From Elusimicrobia bacterium HGW-Elusimicrobia-2 (GTDB lineage: Bacteria > CG03), in NCBI GenBank assembly GCA_002841685.1, contig PHAM01000024.1, forward strand, positions 1 to 26,804: a stretch of DNA of 26,804 bases, written 5' to 3'. The notes beneath the pieces are model-generated. The model ran no database searches, had not been told where the DNA came from, and was given only the letters and a program-made list of their open reading frames with translations. Shown here piece by piece: positions 11,389 through 21,801 of the stretch; the stretch's first letter is position 1; the number at the start of each line of letters is the position of its first letter. The translations under genes were made by a program, and so were the position numbers.

Positions 11389-12363
11389 TTGAAATCGCAT
11401 TTCGCCGATAGGGCTAAAATCACGGTTAAAGCCGGCGACGGCGGCAGCGGCTGTGTTTCGTTCAGAAGAGAAAAATTCATACCGAAAGGCGGCCCCGACG
11501 GCGGCGACGGCGGCAACGGCGGCAGCGTCATTCTCGAGGCCTCGCCTCATCTTGTCACACTTTACGATTTCAAACTTCGTCCCTACTACAAAGCCGAAAA
11601 CGGCATGGGCGGTGAAGGCAGCAGAAAAATGGGAAAGGACGGGGAAACACTCAGGATAAAAGTGCCCTGCGGCACCGAGGTTTACAGAGATGGCAATCTC
11701 ATAGCCGATCTTGTTTTCGAGGGAGACAGTGTCACGGCGGCGCGGGGCGGTCATGGCGGCCGCGGAAATGATTTTTTTAAAAGCGCCGTGAACAGAACTC
11801 CCCGCCGTTTTGAAAAAGGAACCCTCGGAGAAGGGGGAGAACTGCTCCTTAAACTCAAACTCATAGCGGATGTGGGGCTGGTTGGTTTTCCCAACGCCGG
11901 CAAGTCCACTCTTCTGGGGCGTATCTCAAACGCGCATCCGCGCGTGGCGGCGTATCCTTTCACCACGCTCAAACCCAATCTCGGCGTGGTGGAGACCCCG
12001 ACGGGAAAGATCAGTTTTGCCGATCTGCCGGGTATCGTTGAAGGGGCTCACGCGGGCAAGGGCCTGGGGTTTGAATTCCTCGCTCACATTGAAAGGGTCA
12101 AGATCCTTCTTTTTGTCCTGGATGTGAACGGCTTCAGCTCACCGGGCGATCCTTACGCCGATTTTAAAATCCTGCTGGATGAGATAAAACAATATAATCC
12201 TTTTCTGCTGGAAAAACCTTTTGTGATAGCCGTGAATAAAATAGATACCTGCGGCGACACGGGCGCGTATACTGATTTCAGCGGAAAGCATTTCGGGATC
12301 TCCGCGCTCGAAGGAACGGGCGTCAAAGGCCTTATAGAACACATAAGAGAGGTGTTATGTTGA
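11389..12363 (+). CDS. obg: GTPase Obg (CgtA), ribosome assembly
   Basis: The 324-aa protein has the glycine-rich Obg fold (FADRAKITVKAGDGGSGCVS through GGPDGGDGGNGG) at residues about 5-155. A GTPase domain follows with G1 GFPNAGKST at about 166-174, the YPFTTLKPNLG switch I, DLPGIVEGA as G3, NKID as G4, and a G5 ISALEG near the C-terminus. It acts in late 50S assembly. The C-terminal OCT domain of Bacillus-type Obg is absent. The start is TTG: an in-frame stop (the rpmA TAA) lies four codons upstream, and no ATG occurs before the conserved FADRAKI segment. It overlaps proB by 7 nt. Confidence 0.96.
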   Translation: MKSHFADRAKITVKAGDGGSGCVSFRREKFIPKGGPDGGDGGNGGSVILEASPHLVTLYDFKLRPYYKAENGMGGEGSRKMGKDGETLRIKVPCGTEVYRDGNLIADLVFEGDSVTAARGGHGGRGNDFFKSAVNRTPRRFEKGTLGEGGELLLKLKLIADVGLVGFPNAGKSTLLGRISNAHPRVAAYPFTTLKPNLGVVETPTGKISFADLPGIVEGAHAGKGLGFEFLAHIERVKILLFVLDVNGFSSPGDPYADFKILLDEIKQYNPFLLEKPFVIAVNKIDTCGDTGAYTDFSGKHFGISALEGTGVKGLIEHIREVLC

Positions 12364-13466
12364 ACAAAGAGAAATCCGCCTGCGGCGGAAAAAGAGCTGT
12401 TGTGAAACTGGGCACGGGTTTGTTGAGCGATAACGGCGGGATCAGCGCCTCTGTCATAAGCGCAGTCTGCGGGGAAATAGCGTTTCTTAAAAAGAAGGGT
12501 TTTCAAATCCTTGTTGTTTCCTCCGGCGCCGTCGGATGCGGGATGATAAAGCTCGGCCGGAAGCGGCCTGCGGATATCTCCGGTGCGCAGATGCTGGCTT
12601 CCGTCGGACAGCCTTTGCTGATGGATATGTGGATGAAAGCGCTTTCAAAAAAAGGCCTCACCGCCGCTCAGGTACTATGTTCTGCGGATGATTTCTCCGA
12701 CAGAAAAAAGTATCTGAATCTCAGAAGGGCGCTTCTGAAAATCCTTGAAGAGGGCATTGTGCCCGTGATAAACGAAAACGATTCGGTAACCGTTGACGAA
12801 CTTAAATTCGGCGACAATGACAGGTTGTCGGCTCTGGCCGCAAGTCACATAGAGGCGCGCGACCTTGTGATCCTCACAAATGTTGAAGGGCTTTATGTTG
12901 ACGGTAAACTTGTGAGCGAATTAAAAAATATAGATGACGCGGTTTTAAGGAGCGTTGGCTCCGCCTCTGAGTTCGGCACCGGGGGCATGAAGAGCAAGCT
13001 CCTTGCCGCAAAGATAACGCGGCTTTCCGGATGCCGTTTGACGATAGCTTCGGGGAAAAAGCGCGGGGTGCTCAGAAAAATCCTCTTTGACGGGGAAAAT
13101 CCCGGCACGATTATTCTTCCTTCGGGAAAGATCAGGAACCGCAAGAGATGGATAGCTTTCGCCAGTGCCTGCCGCTCGTCTATAAGTGTTGACGCCGGCG
13201 CGTATAAAGCGATAGTGAAAAACGGCAGGAGCCTGCTCGCCGCCGGCATCACGGGAACCGAAGGTCAGTTCGCTGAAGGCGACACGGTGAATATTGTTCA
13301 CGGGAAGAAAGTTTTCGCCCGGGGTATCGTGAATTATTCGGATTCCGAGGTGAGGAAGATACAGGGCTGCCAGAGCCGCCTCATCAGCAAACTGCTCGCG
13401 CGTGAAACCTGTCCGGAAGTCATCAACAGAGATAATCTCGTTCTCACTGACAAATGCGATTTATAA
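12357..13466 (+). CDS. proB: Glutamate 5-kinase
   Basis: The 369-aa protein has the amino-acid kinase domain first: AVVKLGTGLL, VVSSGAVGCGM, the VPVINENDSV and FGDNDRLSALAASHI motifs, and LTNVEGLY. A C-terminal PUA domain follows from about residue 280 (SISVDAGAYKAIVKNGRSLLAAGITG). It phosphorylates glutamate in the first step of proline synthesis. The ATG lies inside the end of obg with a GAGAGG ribosome site. The obg-proB order is widespread, but proA, the usual next gene, does not follow. Instead there is an intergenic palindromic element and then the sphingolipid genes. Confidence 0.96.
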   Translation: MLNKEKSACGGKRAVVKLGTGLLSDNGGISASVISAVCGEIAFLKKKGFQILVVSSGAVGCGMIKLGRKRPADISGAQMLASVGQPLLMDMWMKALSKKGLTAAQVLCSADDFSDRKKYLNLRRALLKILEEGIVPVINENDSVTVDELKFGDNDRLSALAASHIEARDLVILTNVEGLYVDGKLVSELKNIDDAVLRSVGSASEFGTGGMKSKLLAAKITRLSGCRLTIASGKKRGVLRKILFDGENPGTIILPSGKIRNRKRWIAFASACRSSISVDAGAYKAIVKNGRSLLAAGITGTEGQFAEGDTVNIVHGKKVFARGIVNYSDSEVRKIQGCQSRLISKLLARETCPEVINRDNLVLTDKCDL

Positions 13467-13477
13467 GTGCGTGTCGA

Positions 13478-13594
13478 CCGCCGCGTGGATGCCGCGTCAA
13501 GGGACGCTCACGTATGCGGTTCGCTCTCAATTCGCTTCGGGAAGCTGGTAAAGCCCTCGCTCATAGAGCCTTGACGGACATCCCGCGCGGCGGG
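13478..13594 (+). repeat. Palindromic intergenic element A
   Basis: This fills most of the proB-cerR gap. Outer arms of about 25 nt pair with few interruptions: 13478-13502 (beginning CCGCCGCG, ending CGTCAAGG) and 13569-13594 (beginning CCTTGACG, ending CGGCGGG). Three nt inside lies a core (13506-13565) that recurs inverted at 17106-17166. It has GCTCACGTATGCGGTTCGCT identical over 20 nt, CAATTCGCT identical, a variable middle of 18 nt that can fold (GGG/CCC, GCT/AGC), and CCTCGCTCATA identical. No protein-coding signal was seen. Confidence 0.65.
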
Positions 13595-13605
13595 TTGTGG
13601 CCTCA

Positions 13606-14553
13606 ATGAAAATATTTTTAACGGGCGCCACGGGCTTTATAGGAAAAAATCTCGTCGAGCATCTGAAAGGACATGAGCTTTTCTGCCTTGTCAGGAGCCG
13701 GGAAAAATTTGAGAGCATAAAGGGTGAAAATGTTTTTCCGGTTTACGGTGATATACGGGAAGATCTCCCGGACCTGCCCGAAGCCGAGGTCATAATACAT
13801 AACGCCGCCGTGGTGCGGGCTCCTTCAAAAACATATTATGAGGTGAATACGGCGGGCACCTCGGCTCTGCTCAATAAGGCGAAGAAAATAAAAACGCTGA
13901 AAAAATTCATATTTATTTCGTCCCAGGCGGTGTCAGGGCCTGCCGGATTGAGCCGGCCGGCGGAAGAAAGCGACGAGCCCCGCCCCGTGTCGGACTACGG
14001 GAAAAGCAAGGCCCTCGCCGAGAAACTGGTCAGGGAATCCTCGCTGCCCTATCTCATCTTACGCCCTGCGGCTGTTTACGGTCCTGGAGACAGGGACCTT
14101 TTTGTCACTTTCCAAATGGTGAAGAATGGGCTGGCTTTTCTGCCGTCGGGCGAAAGGTTCCTTAATTTTATCAATGTGAAGGACGTTTGTGCGGGAATAG
14201 AGAAAGCCCTTTTTTCTACATGCGTGAACGACACTTTTTTTCTCGCTCACCCGGAGCCGCAAACGCAGGAAAGTTTCGTCGGGGCTATTGCCGCGGCGGC
14301 GGATAAAAAATGCCGCCTCCTGCGCGTGCCTTCTCCTTTTCTGAAACTGGCGGGGGCGTTTTTTGCAGTGACCGGATTTTTCACCCGCAAAACCGCTCTT
14401 CTCAATCCGCAGAAGGTGAAGGAGCTTCTCGCGGGACACTGGATTGTTAATACCGAGCGCATGCTCAGGGGGCTGGATTTTCATCCCGCCTATGATCTGA
14501 AGAGAGGCGCCGCCCTTACAATGAAATGGTATGAGGATCAGGGCTGGCTTTAA
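13606..14553 (+). CDS. NAD-dependent epimerase/dehydratase, CerR-like ceramide reductase candidate
   Basis: This is a 315-aa extended short-chain dehydrogenase. The Rossmann motif GATGFIG sits near the N-terminus. The IIHNAAVVRA strand and a YGKSK catalytic motif (Y131, K135) follow, then LRPAAVYGPGD and a substrate-domain FLNFINVKDVC. It directly precedes spt and the BcerS-like gene. In Caulobacter an SDR of this class (CerR) reduces the keto group after N-acylation, so I infer that role. A sugar-nucleotide epimerase/reductase is the alternative from sequence alone. ATG 13606 gives MKIFLTGATGFIG. An in-frame GTG at 13597 is possible. No clear ribosome site is visible. Confidence 0.7.
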   Translation: MKIFLTGATGFIGKNLVEHLKGHELFCLVRSREKFESIKGENVFPVYGDIREDLPDLPEAEVIIHNAAVVRAPSKTYYEVNTAGTSALLNKAKKIKTLKKFIFISSQAVSGPAGLSRPAEESDEPRPVSDYGKSKALAEKLVRESSLPYLILRPAAVYGPGDRDLFVTFQMVKNGLAFLPSGERFLNFINVKDVCAGIEKALFSTCVNDTFFLAHPEPQTQESFVGAIAAAADKKCRLLRVPSPFLKLAGAFFAVTGFFTRKTALLNPQKVKELLAGHWIVNTERMLRGLDFHPAYDLKRGAALTMKWYEDQGWL

Positions 14554-14565
14554 TTCAAGCTTCGC

Positions 14566-14579
14566 TCCGCCGCGGCGGA
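14566..14579. repeat. 14-nt perfect palindrome TCCGCCGCGGCGGA
   Basis: A self-complementary GC-rich site lies in the 135-nt gap between the cerR-like gene and spt. It lacks a T-tract, so it is not a convincing terminator. It could be an operator or part of a dispersed repeat. Confidence 0.45.
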
Positions 14580-14616
14580 CGCAACACTGCAATTATGCCT
14601 GGCCTTATGTATTGTC

Positions 14617-14645
14617 TTGACGGAAAAATTTGTTTATTGTTTAAT
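14617..14645 (+). promoter_or_regulatory. Sigma70-type promoter for spt
   Basis: TTGACG (14617-14622, five of six), an exact 17-nt spacer and TTTAAT (14640-14645, five of six) form one of the best promoters in the window. The predicted start near 14652 gives a leader of about 37 nt containing a strong GGAGGAGG ribosome site (14676-14683) 5 nt before the spt ATG. So spt and the downstream acyltransferase can be transcribed independently of the cerR-like gene. Confidence 0.7.
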
Positions 14646-14688
14646 TTACATAGAAGCCGTGACATAGCAACTGCCGGAGGAGGTATAA

Positions 14689-15990
14689 ATGGAACTTTTT
14701 GATAAGGTTAAAAATTTCACCATAGCCCGCGAGGTGCAGAAGGCCGGGCTTTATCCCTATTTCCACACTGTGGAATCCGGGCAGAACGCCGTGGTGACAT
14801 GCGAGGGCCGCCGCATGATAATGATGGGCTCAAACAGTTACCTCGGCCTCGCCACCGACCAGAGGCTGAAAAATGCCGCCATAATGGCAACCCAGAAATA
14901 CGGCACGGGATGTGTGGGGAGCCGCTTTCTCAACGGCACGCTTGATATACATGAACAGTTAGAAAAAGATCTTGCCGAATATATAGGCAAACCCGCGGTC
15001 ATTGTCTTCACCACCGGCATGCAGGTGAATCTCGGTGTGATATCAGCTCTGGTGGGAAAAAAAGATTACATAATAGCCGATAAATTCGATCACGCCTCAA
15101 TTCTCGACGGCTGCCGTTTGTCCGCGGGCATGCTTGTGAGATTTAAGCATAACGATATAGATGATTTTGAGCATGTGTTGAAGAGTCTTCCGGAAGACGC
15201 CGGAAAACTTGTTGTAGTTGACGGCGTTTTTTCCATGGAAGGCGATGTCGCTCCGCTTGATAAACTGGTGCCCATCGCGAAAAAGTACGGCGCCAGGTTC
15301 ATGGTTGACGACGCTCACGGCGTGGGCGTTCTCGGACGATGCGGCCGCGGCACCTGTGACCATTTTGGTTTGACCGACGAGGTGGACCTCATCATGGGGA
15401 CATTCTCAAAATCTTTCGCATCCACCGGCGGTTTCATAGCGGGGGATGAGGATGTCATCCATTACATAAAGCATCACGCCCGGGCTCTGATTTTTTCCGC
15501 CGCGCCCTCTCCGGCCAATGTGGCGTCGGTTATCAAAGCTCTTGAAATAGTCAAAAAGGACAAGAAAAGAATAGCGCGTCTGTTGAAGGTGTCCGAATAT
15601 ATGAGAGATAAACTGAAAAGCATAGGTTTCGACACCGGCTCGACGACAACGCCGATCATTCCTGTCGGTATAGGTGATGACATGACGGCTTTCAAGATGT
15701 GGAAGAGACTTTTTGACAAGGGCGTTTTTGTCACGCCCGTGGTCGCGCCCGCCGTGCCTCCGGGCCGCGCGCTTATAAGGGTGAGTATGATGGCTTCTCA
15801 CACGAAAAAACATGTTGATGAAGCCTGCGCGGCTTTTAAAGAGGTGGGGGAAGAACTCGGGATAATTCAGAAAGGAAGTGGCGAAAAAGTGACTCCGAAA
15901 CCGCAACGTATGACAAAAATGTGGAATGCCCTCAATGGCTGGATGAAAAATCTATGGAACTGGCGCAGGTCAAAACGCCCGATGAATTAA
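14689..15990 (+). CDS. spt: Serine palmitoyltransferase (PLP-dependent alpha-oxoamine synthase)
   Basis: The 433-aa fold-type I PLP enzyme condenses serine with a long-chain acyl thioester to 3-ketosphinganine. The N-terminal YPYFHTVESGQNAVV and MGSNSYLGL segments, GTGCVGSRFLNGTLDIHEQL, DHASILDGCRLS (stacking His135), VDDAHGVG (Asp207/208, His210) and GTFSKSFASTGGF (PLP Lys241) follow bacterial SPT. The GTFSKS(F/L)AS form separates it from KBL and AONS, which have a glycine-rich lysine loop. SPTs of Bacteroidetes share the same blocks. Promoter and ribosome site are strong. About 40 C-terminal residues (from roughly 390, ending in a Trp/Arg-rich tail) extend past the usual SPT end and overlap the next gene. 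Confidence 0.88.
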   Translation: MELFDKVKNFTIAREVQKAGLYPYFHTVESGQNAVVTCEGRRMIMMGSNSYLGLATDQRLKNAAIMATQKYGTGCVGSRFLNGTLDIHEQLEKDLAEYIGKPAVIVFTTGMQVNLGVISALVGKKDYIIADKFDHASILDGCRLSAGMLVRFKHNDIDDFEHVLKSLPEDAGKLVVVDGVFSMEGDVAPLDKLVPIAKKYGARFMVDDAHGVGVLGRCGRGTCDHFGLTDEVDLIMGTFSKSFASTGGFIAGDEDVIHYIKHHARALIFSAAPSPANVASVIKALEIVKKDKKRIARLLKVSEYMRDKLKSIGFDTGSTTTPIIPVGIGDDMTAFKMWKRLFDKGVFVTPVVAPAVPPGRALIRVSMMASHTKKHVDEACAAFKEVGEELGIIQKGSGEKVTPKPQRMTKMWNALNGWMKNLWNWRRSKRPMN

Positions 15991-17066
15991 AGCGTTTCAT
16001 AGAATTTCCCTACGCTTTATACAAAAAAGACCCCAACTGGGCGCCGCCTCTCATTTCAGAAATGAGAGAAATGTTTTCTGATAAAAATCCTTTCTGGAAG
16101 CACTCTGAAAAAGCACTTTTTCTGGTGAGCGGACCGGGTGGAGGAACGCTCGGCCGCATCGCCGCCATTATCGATGAGAATCACAACAGATTTCACGGCG
16201 AGAAATGCGGTTTTTTCGGTTTTTTTGAATGCGGGGAGGACGCCGCCGCCTCGCGGATCCTTTTTGGCGCGGCCCTGTCTTTTCTCCGCTCCCGAGGCAT
16301 GACAATCGTCAGGGGGCCCATGAACCCGTCCACAAACGACGAGTGCGGGCTTCTTGTGGAAGGCCCGGGTGAGCCGGCGAAGATAATGATGCCCTACAAT
16401 CCCCCATATTACGCGGATCTCATCTCATCCGCGGGTTTCTACAAGGCAAAAGACCTGATAGCTTTTGTAACGGACACCGGAAGGGTGCCGGCGAAACGCC
16501 TTTCGTCCATTTCCGAAAGAGTGCTGAAAAGGAATCCCGCCATAAGCGTCAGGCCCATCAACAAAGATGATTTTGAGAACGAAGTGAAGATCATTATGGA
16601 CATCTATAATGCCGCGTGGGAGAAGAACTGGGGCTTTGTTCCGTTCACCGACGATGAAATTTTTTATATGGCGGGCAAACTCAAACATATCGTGGATCCG
16701 GGGCTTTTGCAGATCGCTTTTTACGGCAGGGATCCGGCGGGTTTTATAATGACGCTGCCGGATATAAACGAGGCGCTTAAAAAGATCCGGGGCCGGCTGA
16801 CGCCGCTTGCGGCGCTCAGGTTTTTTTATTATTTCAAGAAAATCAAAAGCATACGCGTTCTCACCATGGGGGTGAAGAAGCGTTATCATCAGATGGGGAT
16901 AGAAAGCCTTCTTTATTATCGGTCGCTTAAAGAGGCGCTCGAAAAGGGCTATAAGGAATGCGAATTCTCATGGGTGCTGGAGGACAATGTGATGATGATG
17001 CGCGCGGCGGATATGCTCTCTGGCAAAGCCTACAAAAGATACCGGATCTTTGAGAAGTCTCTGTGA
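15954..17066 (+). CDS. GNAT-fold acyltransferase of the YghO / bacterial ceramide synthase (BcerS-like) family
   Basis: The protein has 370 aa from ATG 15954. Family blocks are clear: FIEFPYALYKKDPNWAPPL, a KNPFWKHSEKALFLV segment, GRIAAIIDENHNRFHGEK, CGFFGFFEC, GMTIVRGPMNPSTNDECGLL and IMMPYNPPYYADLISSAGF. They match the YghO/BcerS-like family as I know it. A member N-acylates the sphingoid base in Caulobacter, so with spt overlapping upstream I infer ceramide synthase. Other N-acyl transfers remain possible. ATG 15954 is preferred over an in-frame GTG at 15921 because the family begins near the ELKRFIEFPY helix. The overlap with spt is 37 nt. The stop abuts element B directly. Confidence 0.72.
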   Translation: MELAQVKTPDELKRFIEFPYALYKKDPNWAPPLISEMREMFSDKNPFWKHSEKALFLVSGPGGGTLGRIAAIIDENHNRFHGEKCGFFGFFECGEDAAASRILFGAALSFLRSRGMTIVRGPMNPSTNDECGLLVEGPGEPAKIMMPYNPPYYADLISSAGFYKAKDLIAFVTDTGRVPAKRLSSISERVLKRNPAISVRPINKDDFENEVKIIMDIYNAAWEKNWGFVPFTDDEIFYMAGKLKHIVDPGLLQIAFYGRDPAGFIMTLPDINEALKKIRGRLTPLAALRFFYYFKKIKSIRVLTMGVKKRYHQMGIESLLYYRSLKEALEKGYKECEFSWVLEDNVMMMRAADMLSGKAYKRYRIFEKSL

Positions 17067-17294
17067 GCACCCGAAATCACTGCAGACGGTATCCGGAGCG
17101 GGCCATATGAGCGAGGAGTTTTGCACAATGCTCCGAGCGAATTGGCAGCGAACCGCATACGTGAGCGGCCGTCTACGGGTACCGGCCGCGATGAATAAAG
17201 AGCGGCGACCGAACCCGAAGGGTGAGGGAAAGGCACGGGCGCGAGATGTGAGCGCCCCGGATACCTCTGCAGTGATGAATAGGCACGCACCCGA
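17067..17294 (-). repeat. Palindromic intergenic element B (MITE-like)
   Basis: This fills the whole gap between the acyltransferase stop and the next ATG. An 8-bp direct repeat GCACCCGA lies at both edges (17067-17074 and 17287-17294). Inside are inverted arms 17076-17100 (ATCACTGCAGA...) and 17253-17276, matching over 24 nt with one extra base and one mismatch. A core at 17106-17166 is the inverted partner of element A. A further hairpin GCGGCCG/CGGCCGC sits at 17165-17171/17183-17189. An 84-aa frame crosses it but lacks any family pattern and is not called. Confidence 0.65.
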
Positions 17295-17797
17295 TGAAAG
17301 ATAATTATATTTTTACAGGCCGCGGGAAAAAAATAGTTGTGGAGAAGAAGCGCGGCCAGACCCGCGTCCGCGTTGTCTTAAAACTTCTGGCCTATGAAAT
17401 GTTTTCAGGCAGGCTGAGATTTTCCGGTAAGGCCGGTTTCACTTTCAAACCCGATCTGTACGCCGGAGCAGTTGACGGTCAGAAAGCTTTGTGGGCGGAC
17501 TGCGAAGAGCCGTCTGAGAAAAAGATAATGTTTTTCCATTCTCGCAAAGATATTTTTTCGGTGTTCGTGTTCCTTCTGGGGAAGGATTCCGCTCTGGCTC
17601 TGGCGAAACTTTTCAAAAGGCACTCGGTTGAGGCTGTTATATATGCCTTTGAGGAAGAATTCATACAAAAACTGGCCGGAGCGCTTTACAGGAAAAACAC
17701 TTTCAAATGTGTTTTATCGGGAGGCCGTGTGCAAGTAACCCTCAACGGCTCCGCTTACAGCAGTTCCGTTTACTCCAACATCGCGGCGGCTTTTTGA
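17294..17797 (+). CDS. Hypothetical protein, possibly distant YaeQ-like
   Basis: A 167-aa protein I do not securely recognise. It has a basic N-terminal beta-like segment (RVRVVLKLLAYEMFSG), a central PDLYAGAVDGQKALWADCEE block followed by PSEKKIMFF, and a C-terminal half of mixed helices. The PDL...LW...PSEKKI spacing faintly recalls YaeQ, a PD-(D/E)xK-nuclease-fold family, but the resemblance is weak and its catalytic residues cannot be assigned. No signal peptide or membrane segment is evident. The ATG is formed on the right-hand 8-bp repeat of element B and has no Shine-Dalgarno, so the element may have altered its 5' end. It precedes a tRNA on the opposite strand. Confidence 0.6.
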   Translation: MKDNYIFTGRGKKIVVEKKRGQTRVRVVLKLLAYEMFSGRLRFSGKAGFTFKPDLYAGAVDGQKALWADCEEPSEKKIMFFHSRKDIFSVFVFLLGKDSALALAKLFKRHSVEAVIYAFEEEFIQKLAGALYRKNTFKCVLSGGRVQVTLNGSAYSSSVYSNIAAAF

Positions 17798-20544: not shown

Positions 20545-21801
20545 ATGGGACTGACGCTTATAATCATCAACACCCTCACGCTTCTTTTTCTTCCGCCGCT
20601 GCTTTTTCTGGCAGCGCTGCCCAATCTTTACCGGTATATTAAAAGGAGCAGGGGAACATTTCACCAGCGCTTCTATCTTCCCGCCGCCGATTTCATTCCC
20701 GGCGGAGTGTGGTTTCAGGCCTCTTCCGTGGGTGAGGTGAAACTGGCGCTTGTGCTTGCCGCCGAGCTCAAGGACACAGGCCGGCCGCTCTATCTATTTG
20801 CCATGACTCCGGAAGGCAGGGCGCTGGCGAAGACCTCCGGCGCTTTTACCGGAGTTTACTACGCCCCCGTGGATATTTTTTTCATCACCCGAAGTTTTAT
20901 GAAAAAAGTCGCCCCGGCCCTTGTGGTGCTGATAGAGCTCCAGCTCTGGCCCAATCTTATAGAGTCCGCCTCGCGTCACTCTAAAATAGCGCTTGTAAAC
21001 GGCAGGGTTTCTGACAGGAGTTTCCCGAAATACAAACTTATCAAGGCTCTGACGCGGATGATGCTCGAAAAAATAGAAGTGATATCGGCCCGCACGAAGA
21101 AAGACGCCGGCAGATTCATCGCCATGGGCGCCGATCCCGCGCGTGTGTCGGTGACGGGGAATATCAAATACGATATTGTCGCTGGGCCGTCTGCCGAAAG
21201 ATCCCGTCGGAAAGATTACGCTGTTCCGGAAGCGGCCCTGGTCGTAAGCGCCGGTAGCACTCACAGGGGTGAGGAAGCGGCCGTTATAGACGCTGTTCTT
21301 CCGCTGGGAAAGGATGTTTACTGCATAATAGTTCCCCGGCACATAGAGCGCATAAGAGAAATAGAGCGCGTTTTCAGGCGGAGAAAAATACTCTGTTCCC
21401 GCTTCAGCCGCTCAGGCGGGTTTACGCCCGGCTCACGCTTTCTGCTTGTGGACAGGATAGGGTTGCTCGACGGCATTTACGGAATTTCGGATATCTGTTT
21501 TGTCGGCGGTTCACTCGTGCCTCACGGCGGTCAGAATTTTGTTGAGGCTGTCCGGAGGAAAAAAGCCGTTGTTGTGGGTTCTCACACAGGGAATTTCAGT
21601 GAGGAATTTGATATACTGAGAGATGAGCTTTTTGTTGTTCCGGACAGAGTTGCTCTGGCAAAGGCTTTTGGCGATCTTGCTTCTTCAAAGGAAATGAGAG
21701 AGAAAAAAGCCGCCGCGGCTTTTGAAAAACTGGATATGCTCAAAGGCGCCCTGCGCCGCAACACGGTCGTCATAAAAGACCTGTTGCTGAATAATATATG
21801 A
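20545..21801 (+). CDS. waaA: 3-deoxy-D-manno-octulosonic acid (Kdo) transferase
   Basis: This 418-aa GT30 enzyme transfers Kdo from CMP-Kdo to lipid A precursor at the inner-membrane face. An N-terminal membrane anchor (about residues 3-25) is followed by WFQASSVGEVKLALVLAAEL, with the S-x-G-E catalytic glutamate. LIELQLWPNLI, NGRVSDRSFPKY, SVTGNIKYD and the C-terminal FVGGSLVPHGGQNFVEAV nucleotide-sugar motif are all typical. It starts 3 nt after the previous stop with no clear ribosome site. The stop overlaps the K+ channel start. Its presence indicates an LPS outer membrane. Confidence 0.96.
   Translation: MGLTLIIINTLTLLFLPPLLFLAALPNLYRYIKRSRGTFHQRFYLPAADFIPGGVWFQASSVGEVKLALVLAAELKDTGRPLYLFAMTPEGRALAKTSGAFTGVYYAPVDIFFITRSFMKKVAPALVVLIELQLWPNLIESASRHSKIALVNGRVSDRSFPKYKLIKALTRMMLEKIEVISARTKKDAGRFIAMGADPARVSVTGNIKYDIVAGPSAERSRRKDYAVPEAALVVSAGSTHRGEEAAVIDAVLPLGKDVYCIIVPRHIERIREIERVFRRRKILCSRFSRSGGFTPGSRFLLVDRIGLLDGIYGISDICFVGGSLVPHGGQNFVEAVRRKKAVVVGSHTGNFSEEFDILRDELFVVPDRVALAKAFGDLASSKEMREKKAAAAFEKLDMLKGALRRNTVVIKDLLLNNI

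Follow-up and report, generated by a model that had tools for sequence, protein, structure and literature searches.

A putative three-gene dihydroceramide synthesis module in an uncultured Elusimicrobia genome

Analysis of a 26,804-nucleotide stretch of contig PHAM01000024.1 from Elusimicrobia bacterium HGW-Elusimicrobia-2 (here called the window; source genome 1.78 Mb, 96% complete, 0.4% contamination) revealed three adjacent forward-strand genes at 13606-17066 whose predicted products fit the steps by which bacteria make ceramide, the sphingolipid core. The first (13606-14553, +), with an ATG start, an alternative GTG start 9 bases upstream at 13597 and a match to the Pfam Epimerase model (E 8e-25), encodes a 315-residue CerR-like extended short-chain dehydrogenase/reductase (SDR), a putative 3-keto reductase. 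The second, spt (14689-15990, +), follows a strong Shine-Dalgarno-like sequence (GGAGGAGG, 14676-14683, +) and encodes a 433-residue pyridoxal 5'-phosphate (PLP)-dependent alpha-oxoamine synthase, assigned as a serine palmitoyltransferase (Spt) by profile, PDB match, tree and residues. The third (15954-17066, +) encodes a 370-residue bCerS/YghO-like N-acyltransferase with a predicted tandem Gcn5-related N-acetyltransferase (GNAT) fold, assigned by tblastn, alignment, an AlphaFold2 (AF2) model and structure matches; its ATG start at 15954 (alternative GTG at 15921) overlaps the 3' end of spt.

We propose that this trio is a minimal bacterial dihydroceramide synthesis module, a reading to which we assign a probability of about 0.88. 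Spt would join L-serine to a fatty acyl thioester in a condensation that yields 3-ketosphinganine, the bCerS-like tandem GNAT would N-acylate the long-chain base, and the CerR-like SDR would reduce the 3-keto group, the last two steps being predicted in no fixed order. A first-pass annotation, made from the sequence alone, had described the same three adjacent genes, the overlap of the acyltransferase with spt and their fit to ceramide synthesis; all three open reading frames were recovered, and the functional assignment gained support from family membership, catalytic residues, trees and conserved linkage.

The best NCBIfam model for the PLP enzyme was SerpalmtaseCFB, the Bacteroidetes serine palmitoyltransferase (SPT; E 1.1e-167, 557.7 bits vs 420 for the next model), and its closest solved relatives were the Sphingobacterium multivorum SPTs (PDB 3a2b, E 1.6e-132). 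The GTFSKSFAS loop singled out in the first-pass annotation was located at residues 237-245 (GTFSKS PLP-lysine motif, residues 237-242, at 15397-15414, +), and its PLP lysine, K241, aligns to K244 of S. multivorum SPT. In this alignment 13 residues, catalytic and serine-pocket residues among them, were the same in both proteins (N52, Y54, S81, H138, S185, D210, A212, H213, T241, S243, K244, A274 and R367 in S. multivorum numbering), most of them having described roles (PMC10196870, PMC9304779), and the Ser at the S243 position and the Ala at the A274 position set the window Spt apart from Escherichia coli Kbl and BioF. In a tree of 74 rows, with Kbl and BioF as outgroups on long branches, the window Spt, the triad-linked Spts and S. 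multivorum SPT, an enzyme characterised biochemically, fell in a 70-row group apart from Kbl and BioF (99% support in the Shimodaira-Hasegawa-like approximate likelihood ratio test, SH-aLRT), and the Spts of the window's phylum formed one group (97%). Taken together, these comparisons indicate that the PLP enzyme is a member of the Spt family, predicted to form 3-ketosphinganine.

The acyltransferase matched no Pfam or NCBIfam model. Its full-length tblastn homologues were annotated as YghO, N-acetyltransferase or 'dATP pyrophosphohydrolase', with E 2e-57 to yghO-like plasmid proteins, and one lies on a Pseudomonas plasmid, in the vicinity of genes labelled PLP aminotransferase-family enzyme, phosphopantetheine-binding protein, SDR, fatty acyl-AMP ligase and LptF/LptG, a set that fits that of Caulobacter and relatives (described in PMC11324152). 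Identity to the acyltransferase of this AasR/AcpR-type cluster was 35% over 373 columns; the homology was full-length with E <= 1e-30, the threshold for bCerS homology used in PMC11334938, the comparison being with the Pseudomonas cluster rather than with the C. crescentus sequence. The AF2 model of the window protein (predicted local distance difference test score 95.2) matched tandem GNATs in Foldseek and VIA-align, the best being 7q3a (Z 23.9, root-mean-square deviation 3.3 A, 305 aligned residues), with long-chain N-myristoyltransferases ranked lower (Z ~15.6). These results suggest that the third gene encodes a bCerS-like tandem GNAT, with N-acylation of a long-chain base as its predicted activity.

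The SDR carries a TGATGFIG Rossmann loop and an SDYGKSK (YxxxK) active site. In the SDR tree it grouped with SDRs encoded beside Spt/bCerS in other phyla and lay outside the 18-row group of sugar-nucleotide SDRs (99% SH-aLRT); its identity to the SDR of the Pseudomonas cluster was 28%. Of the three gene assignments, that of the SDR as a putative CerR is the weakest. Its distance from other SDRs of the phylum in the free tree hinted that the SDR had been replaced in the window's family, an idea that was dropped because the tree keeping the phylum's SDRs together was better by 36.6 log units (approximately unbiased test, p-AU 0.925). Caulobacter CerR has been assigned to the periplasm, with a proposed role in the last step (PMC11087976), while others propose the eukaryotic step order instead (PMC11324152). 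No export signal was seen at the N-terminus of the window SDR, which leaves no room for a signal peptide ahead of the Rossmann strand; because the Pseudomonas SDR likewise begins straight with the Rossmann fold, without an export signal, this N-terminus does not discriminate location or step order.

The gene order SDR-Spt-bCerS was kept across four families of the window's phylum (f1, to which the window belongs, f3, f5 and f6), which argues that the trio is not a chance cluster. Among 80 named loci fetched by the acyltransferase, the fetched DNA held an Spt homologue at 53, spt lay co-directional within 300 bp of the bCerS-like gene at 49, and the exact co-directional order SDR-Spt-bCerS occurred at 17. 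These loci span Zixibacteria, Nitrospirota, Acidobacteriota, Verrucomicrobiota, Planctomycetota, Bdellovibrionota and others, and on Actinomycetota plasmids Spt, bCerS and SDR genes are consecutive in that order. The single genome of family f4 had neither bCerS nor a close Spt; it encodes a 540-residue alpha-oxoamine synthase homologue with ~180 extra N-terminal residues, near signalling genes (L136:4242-5864, G009). Directly upstream of the SDR gene, families f3 and f6 carry a gene for a 187-residue hydrophobic protein of no Pfam family that is absent from f1 (L138:6430-6993, L137:1363-1926, G008:C235:3397-3957 and G013:C20:40101-40658). By eye this protein resembles lipid or dolichol kinases dependent on cytidine triphosphate, and so could modify the ceramide head.

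Unlike in Rhodobacteria, where Spt uses a specialised acyl carrier protein (ACP), AcpR, loaded by the synthetase AasR (PMC9386255), no ACP or acyl-ACP synthetase gene lies within the window cluster, as the first-pass annotation had noted. A dedicated ACP or acyl-ACP synthetase was also searched for elsewhere in the genome and not found. The genome yielded a single phosphopantetheine (PP)-binding ACP, on another contig, one match to the ketoacyl synthase C-terminal domain, and no PF00501 AMP-binding enzyme in a profile search that works, since it was positive in 12 of 14 control genomes. Because there is one ACP, one ketoacyl synthase and no AMP-binding enzyme, both acyl chains would come from housekeeping acyl-ACP: Spt and bCerS most likely take acyl-ACP, carried on the sole ACP of the cell, straight from the type II fatty acid synthase. 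The genome also encodes LpxC and WaaA, the latter from a gene (20545-21801; PF04413, E 9e-44) about 3.5 kb downstream of the trio, near the 4 kb first estimated. From the presence of both, the organism very likely makes lipid A too and has a lipopolysaccharide (LPS) outer membrane, of which the sphingolipid would presumably be a further component alongside LPS.

Several points weigh against the proposed module. The 557.7-bit score of Spt falls below the 640-bit NCBIfam equivalog cut-off for SerpalmtaseCFB, which is an annotation threshold tuned to Bacteroidetes and not a functional property. The window SDR is only 28-30% identical to the SDRs of other, distant clusters, and forks of the SDR tree are open on whether all triad SDRs, including the proteobacterial CerR, share one clade. 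An acyl-ACP or acyl-CoA synthetase could have been lost by assembly, as 4% of the genome is missing, which is the main caveat on the acyl donor.

Among other explanations the best survivor, though an unlikely one, is that Spt prefers alanine or glycine and that the trio, with the other two enzymes acting as proposed above, yields a 1-deoxy- or 1-deoxymethyl-ceramide. At the side-chain-facing position equivalent to S. multivorum A79 (human SPTLC1 C133), the window Spt and 10 of 10 Spts compared from the phylum have Val, and the Black Sea survey describes 1-deoxyceramides as abundant in settings whose anaerobic bacteria have Spt-like genes (PMC11334938). However, N49, H135, S182, S240, K241 and R364 of the window Spt match the serine-binding pocket, and the A79 position is a weak predictor because it varies freely across Spts, being T, A or S in most and ranging over T, A, S, V and C. 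It is highly improbable that the PLP enzyme instead makes a sulfonolipid from cysteate, as SulA and CapA types do. Fold and family are common to both, and the cysteate acyltransferase 28eh was among the PDB matches, but with E 3e-65 vs 2e-132 for SPT; moreover, Lys281, the distinguishing active-site residue of SulA (PMC9304779), is replaced by Ala271 in the window Spt (S. multivorum A274), on which ground this identity was rejected, and serine rather than cysteate is the expected substrate. We give just as little credence to an accidental cluster of a Kbl or BioF, a sugar epimerase and an unrelated GNAT. In its favour, all three proteins belong to large superfamilies and the best NCBIfam match of the SDR is HpnA, far below cut-off, but the Spt and SDR trees contradict both groupings (the two outcomes that the first-pass annotation had set against itself), the GTFSKS motif has Ser where Kbl and BioF have Gly, and the linkage is conserved in many phyla; Kbl and BioF were rejected on tree and residues, and a sugar epimerase on the tree.

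The proposed dihydroceramide synthesis by the trio fits known systems. The Caulobacter crescentus pathway (CC_1162, CC_1154 and CC_1164 for Spt, bCerS and CerR) relies on these three families of enzyme too for its condensation, N-acylation and keto-reduction steps (PMC11087976, PMC11324152), homology here being checked on the Pseudomonas plasmid equivalents rather than the Caulobacter sequences. It differs in having dedicated AcpR and AasR, found neither in the window cluster nor, so far as the searches show, elsewhere in the genome, and whereas the window bCerS gene overlaps spt, Rhodobacteria cerS is stated always to lie in a separate operon (PMC11324152). In the Black Sea survey, Spt-like proteins are recorded from 38 phyla, often clustered with bCerS and CerR, with the trio likewise co-localised in uncultured anaerobes of many phyla, so the module is of an already known kind; the window lineage is not named in that main text (PMC11334938), and we found no literature pairing Elusimicrobia with sphingolipids. 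What is new is modest: one more lineage, little studied and uncultured, joins the predicted sphingolipid makers, its acyl-ACP supply is likely the housekeeping one, and its Spt carries a tail specific to the lineage. The three-gene set is small enough to be expressed whole, and a genome in which one ACP stands without any acyl-CoA or acyl-ACP synthetase would offer a clean natural case for asking whether housekeeping acyl-ACP by itself suffices for bacterial Spt and bCerS.

The tail distinguishes the window Spt from S. multivorum SPT (PDB 3a2b/8guh), its best solved relative, with which all catalytic residues are common and from which it differs also in the Val at the A79 position. Residues 394-433 (~40) reach beyond the S. 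multivorum end and include an amphipathic helix rich in Trp and basic residues (residues 406-428, 15904-15972, +), which AF2 modelled as a separate helix beyond a low-confidence linker. The segment has the top hydrophobic moment of all 18-mers in the protein (0.68 vs 0.61 at the 99th percentile). The window tail ends in WMKNLWNWRR, those of other f1 genera in WMRRLWR or WMRYLWK, and those of other families in WMAGLWR (f2), WMKHLWR (f5) and WMKKLWR (f6); the WMxxLWR tail was found neither in f3 Spts nor in any of 60 Spts compared from other lineages. We considered whether the tail is a by-product of the spt/bCerS overlap and rejected this, since WMKHLWR is retained in the Spts of f5, where the genes do not overlap. 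Sequence and model suggest that the helix may tether Spt to the membrane. We tentatively suggest, as a possibility rather than an expectation, that Spt is held at the inner membrane by its own Trp-rich helix and supplied by housekeeping acyl-ACP, which would place formation of the 3-keto base at the membrane beside bCerS. If true, this wiring would be unlike both the Caulobacter Spt, which is soluble (PMC11087976) and has a dedicated AcpR, and the transmembrane eukaryotic enzyme. Some Spts of Myxococcota and relatives (L117, L099 and L128) have C-terminal extensions of ~100 residues, unlike the tail of the window lineage.

Upstream of the trio lies proB (12357-13466, +). A promoter scan gave sites no more numerous than in shuffles. 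An interspersed repeat of 65-80 bp flanks the trio in opposite orientations (13502-13578, +; 17106-17170, -), with ~12 further matches in the genome at 77-90% identity; it is present also in congeners and in G007, and its RNA fold is not unusual. Mobilisation of the trio by these short repeats was rejected because the proB-SDR gap of sister genomes, in which the trio occupies the same site, is too short for the repeat. A gene for a YaeQ-like protein (17294-17797, +; PF07152, E 6e-10), for which no role is apparent, comes after bCerS; its position is kept through family f1, and in L033 it adjoins bCerS directly.

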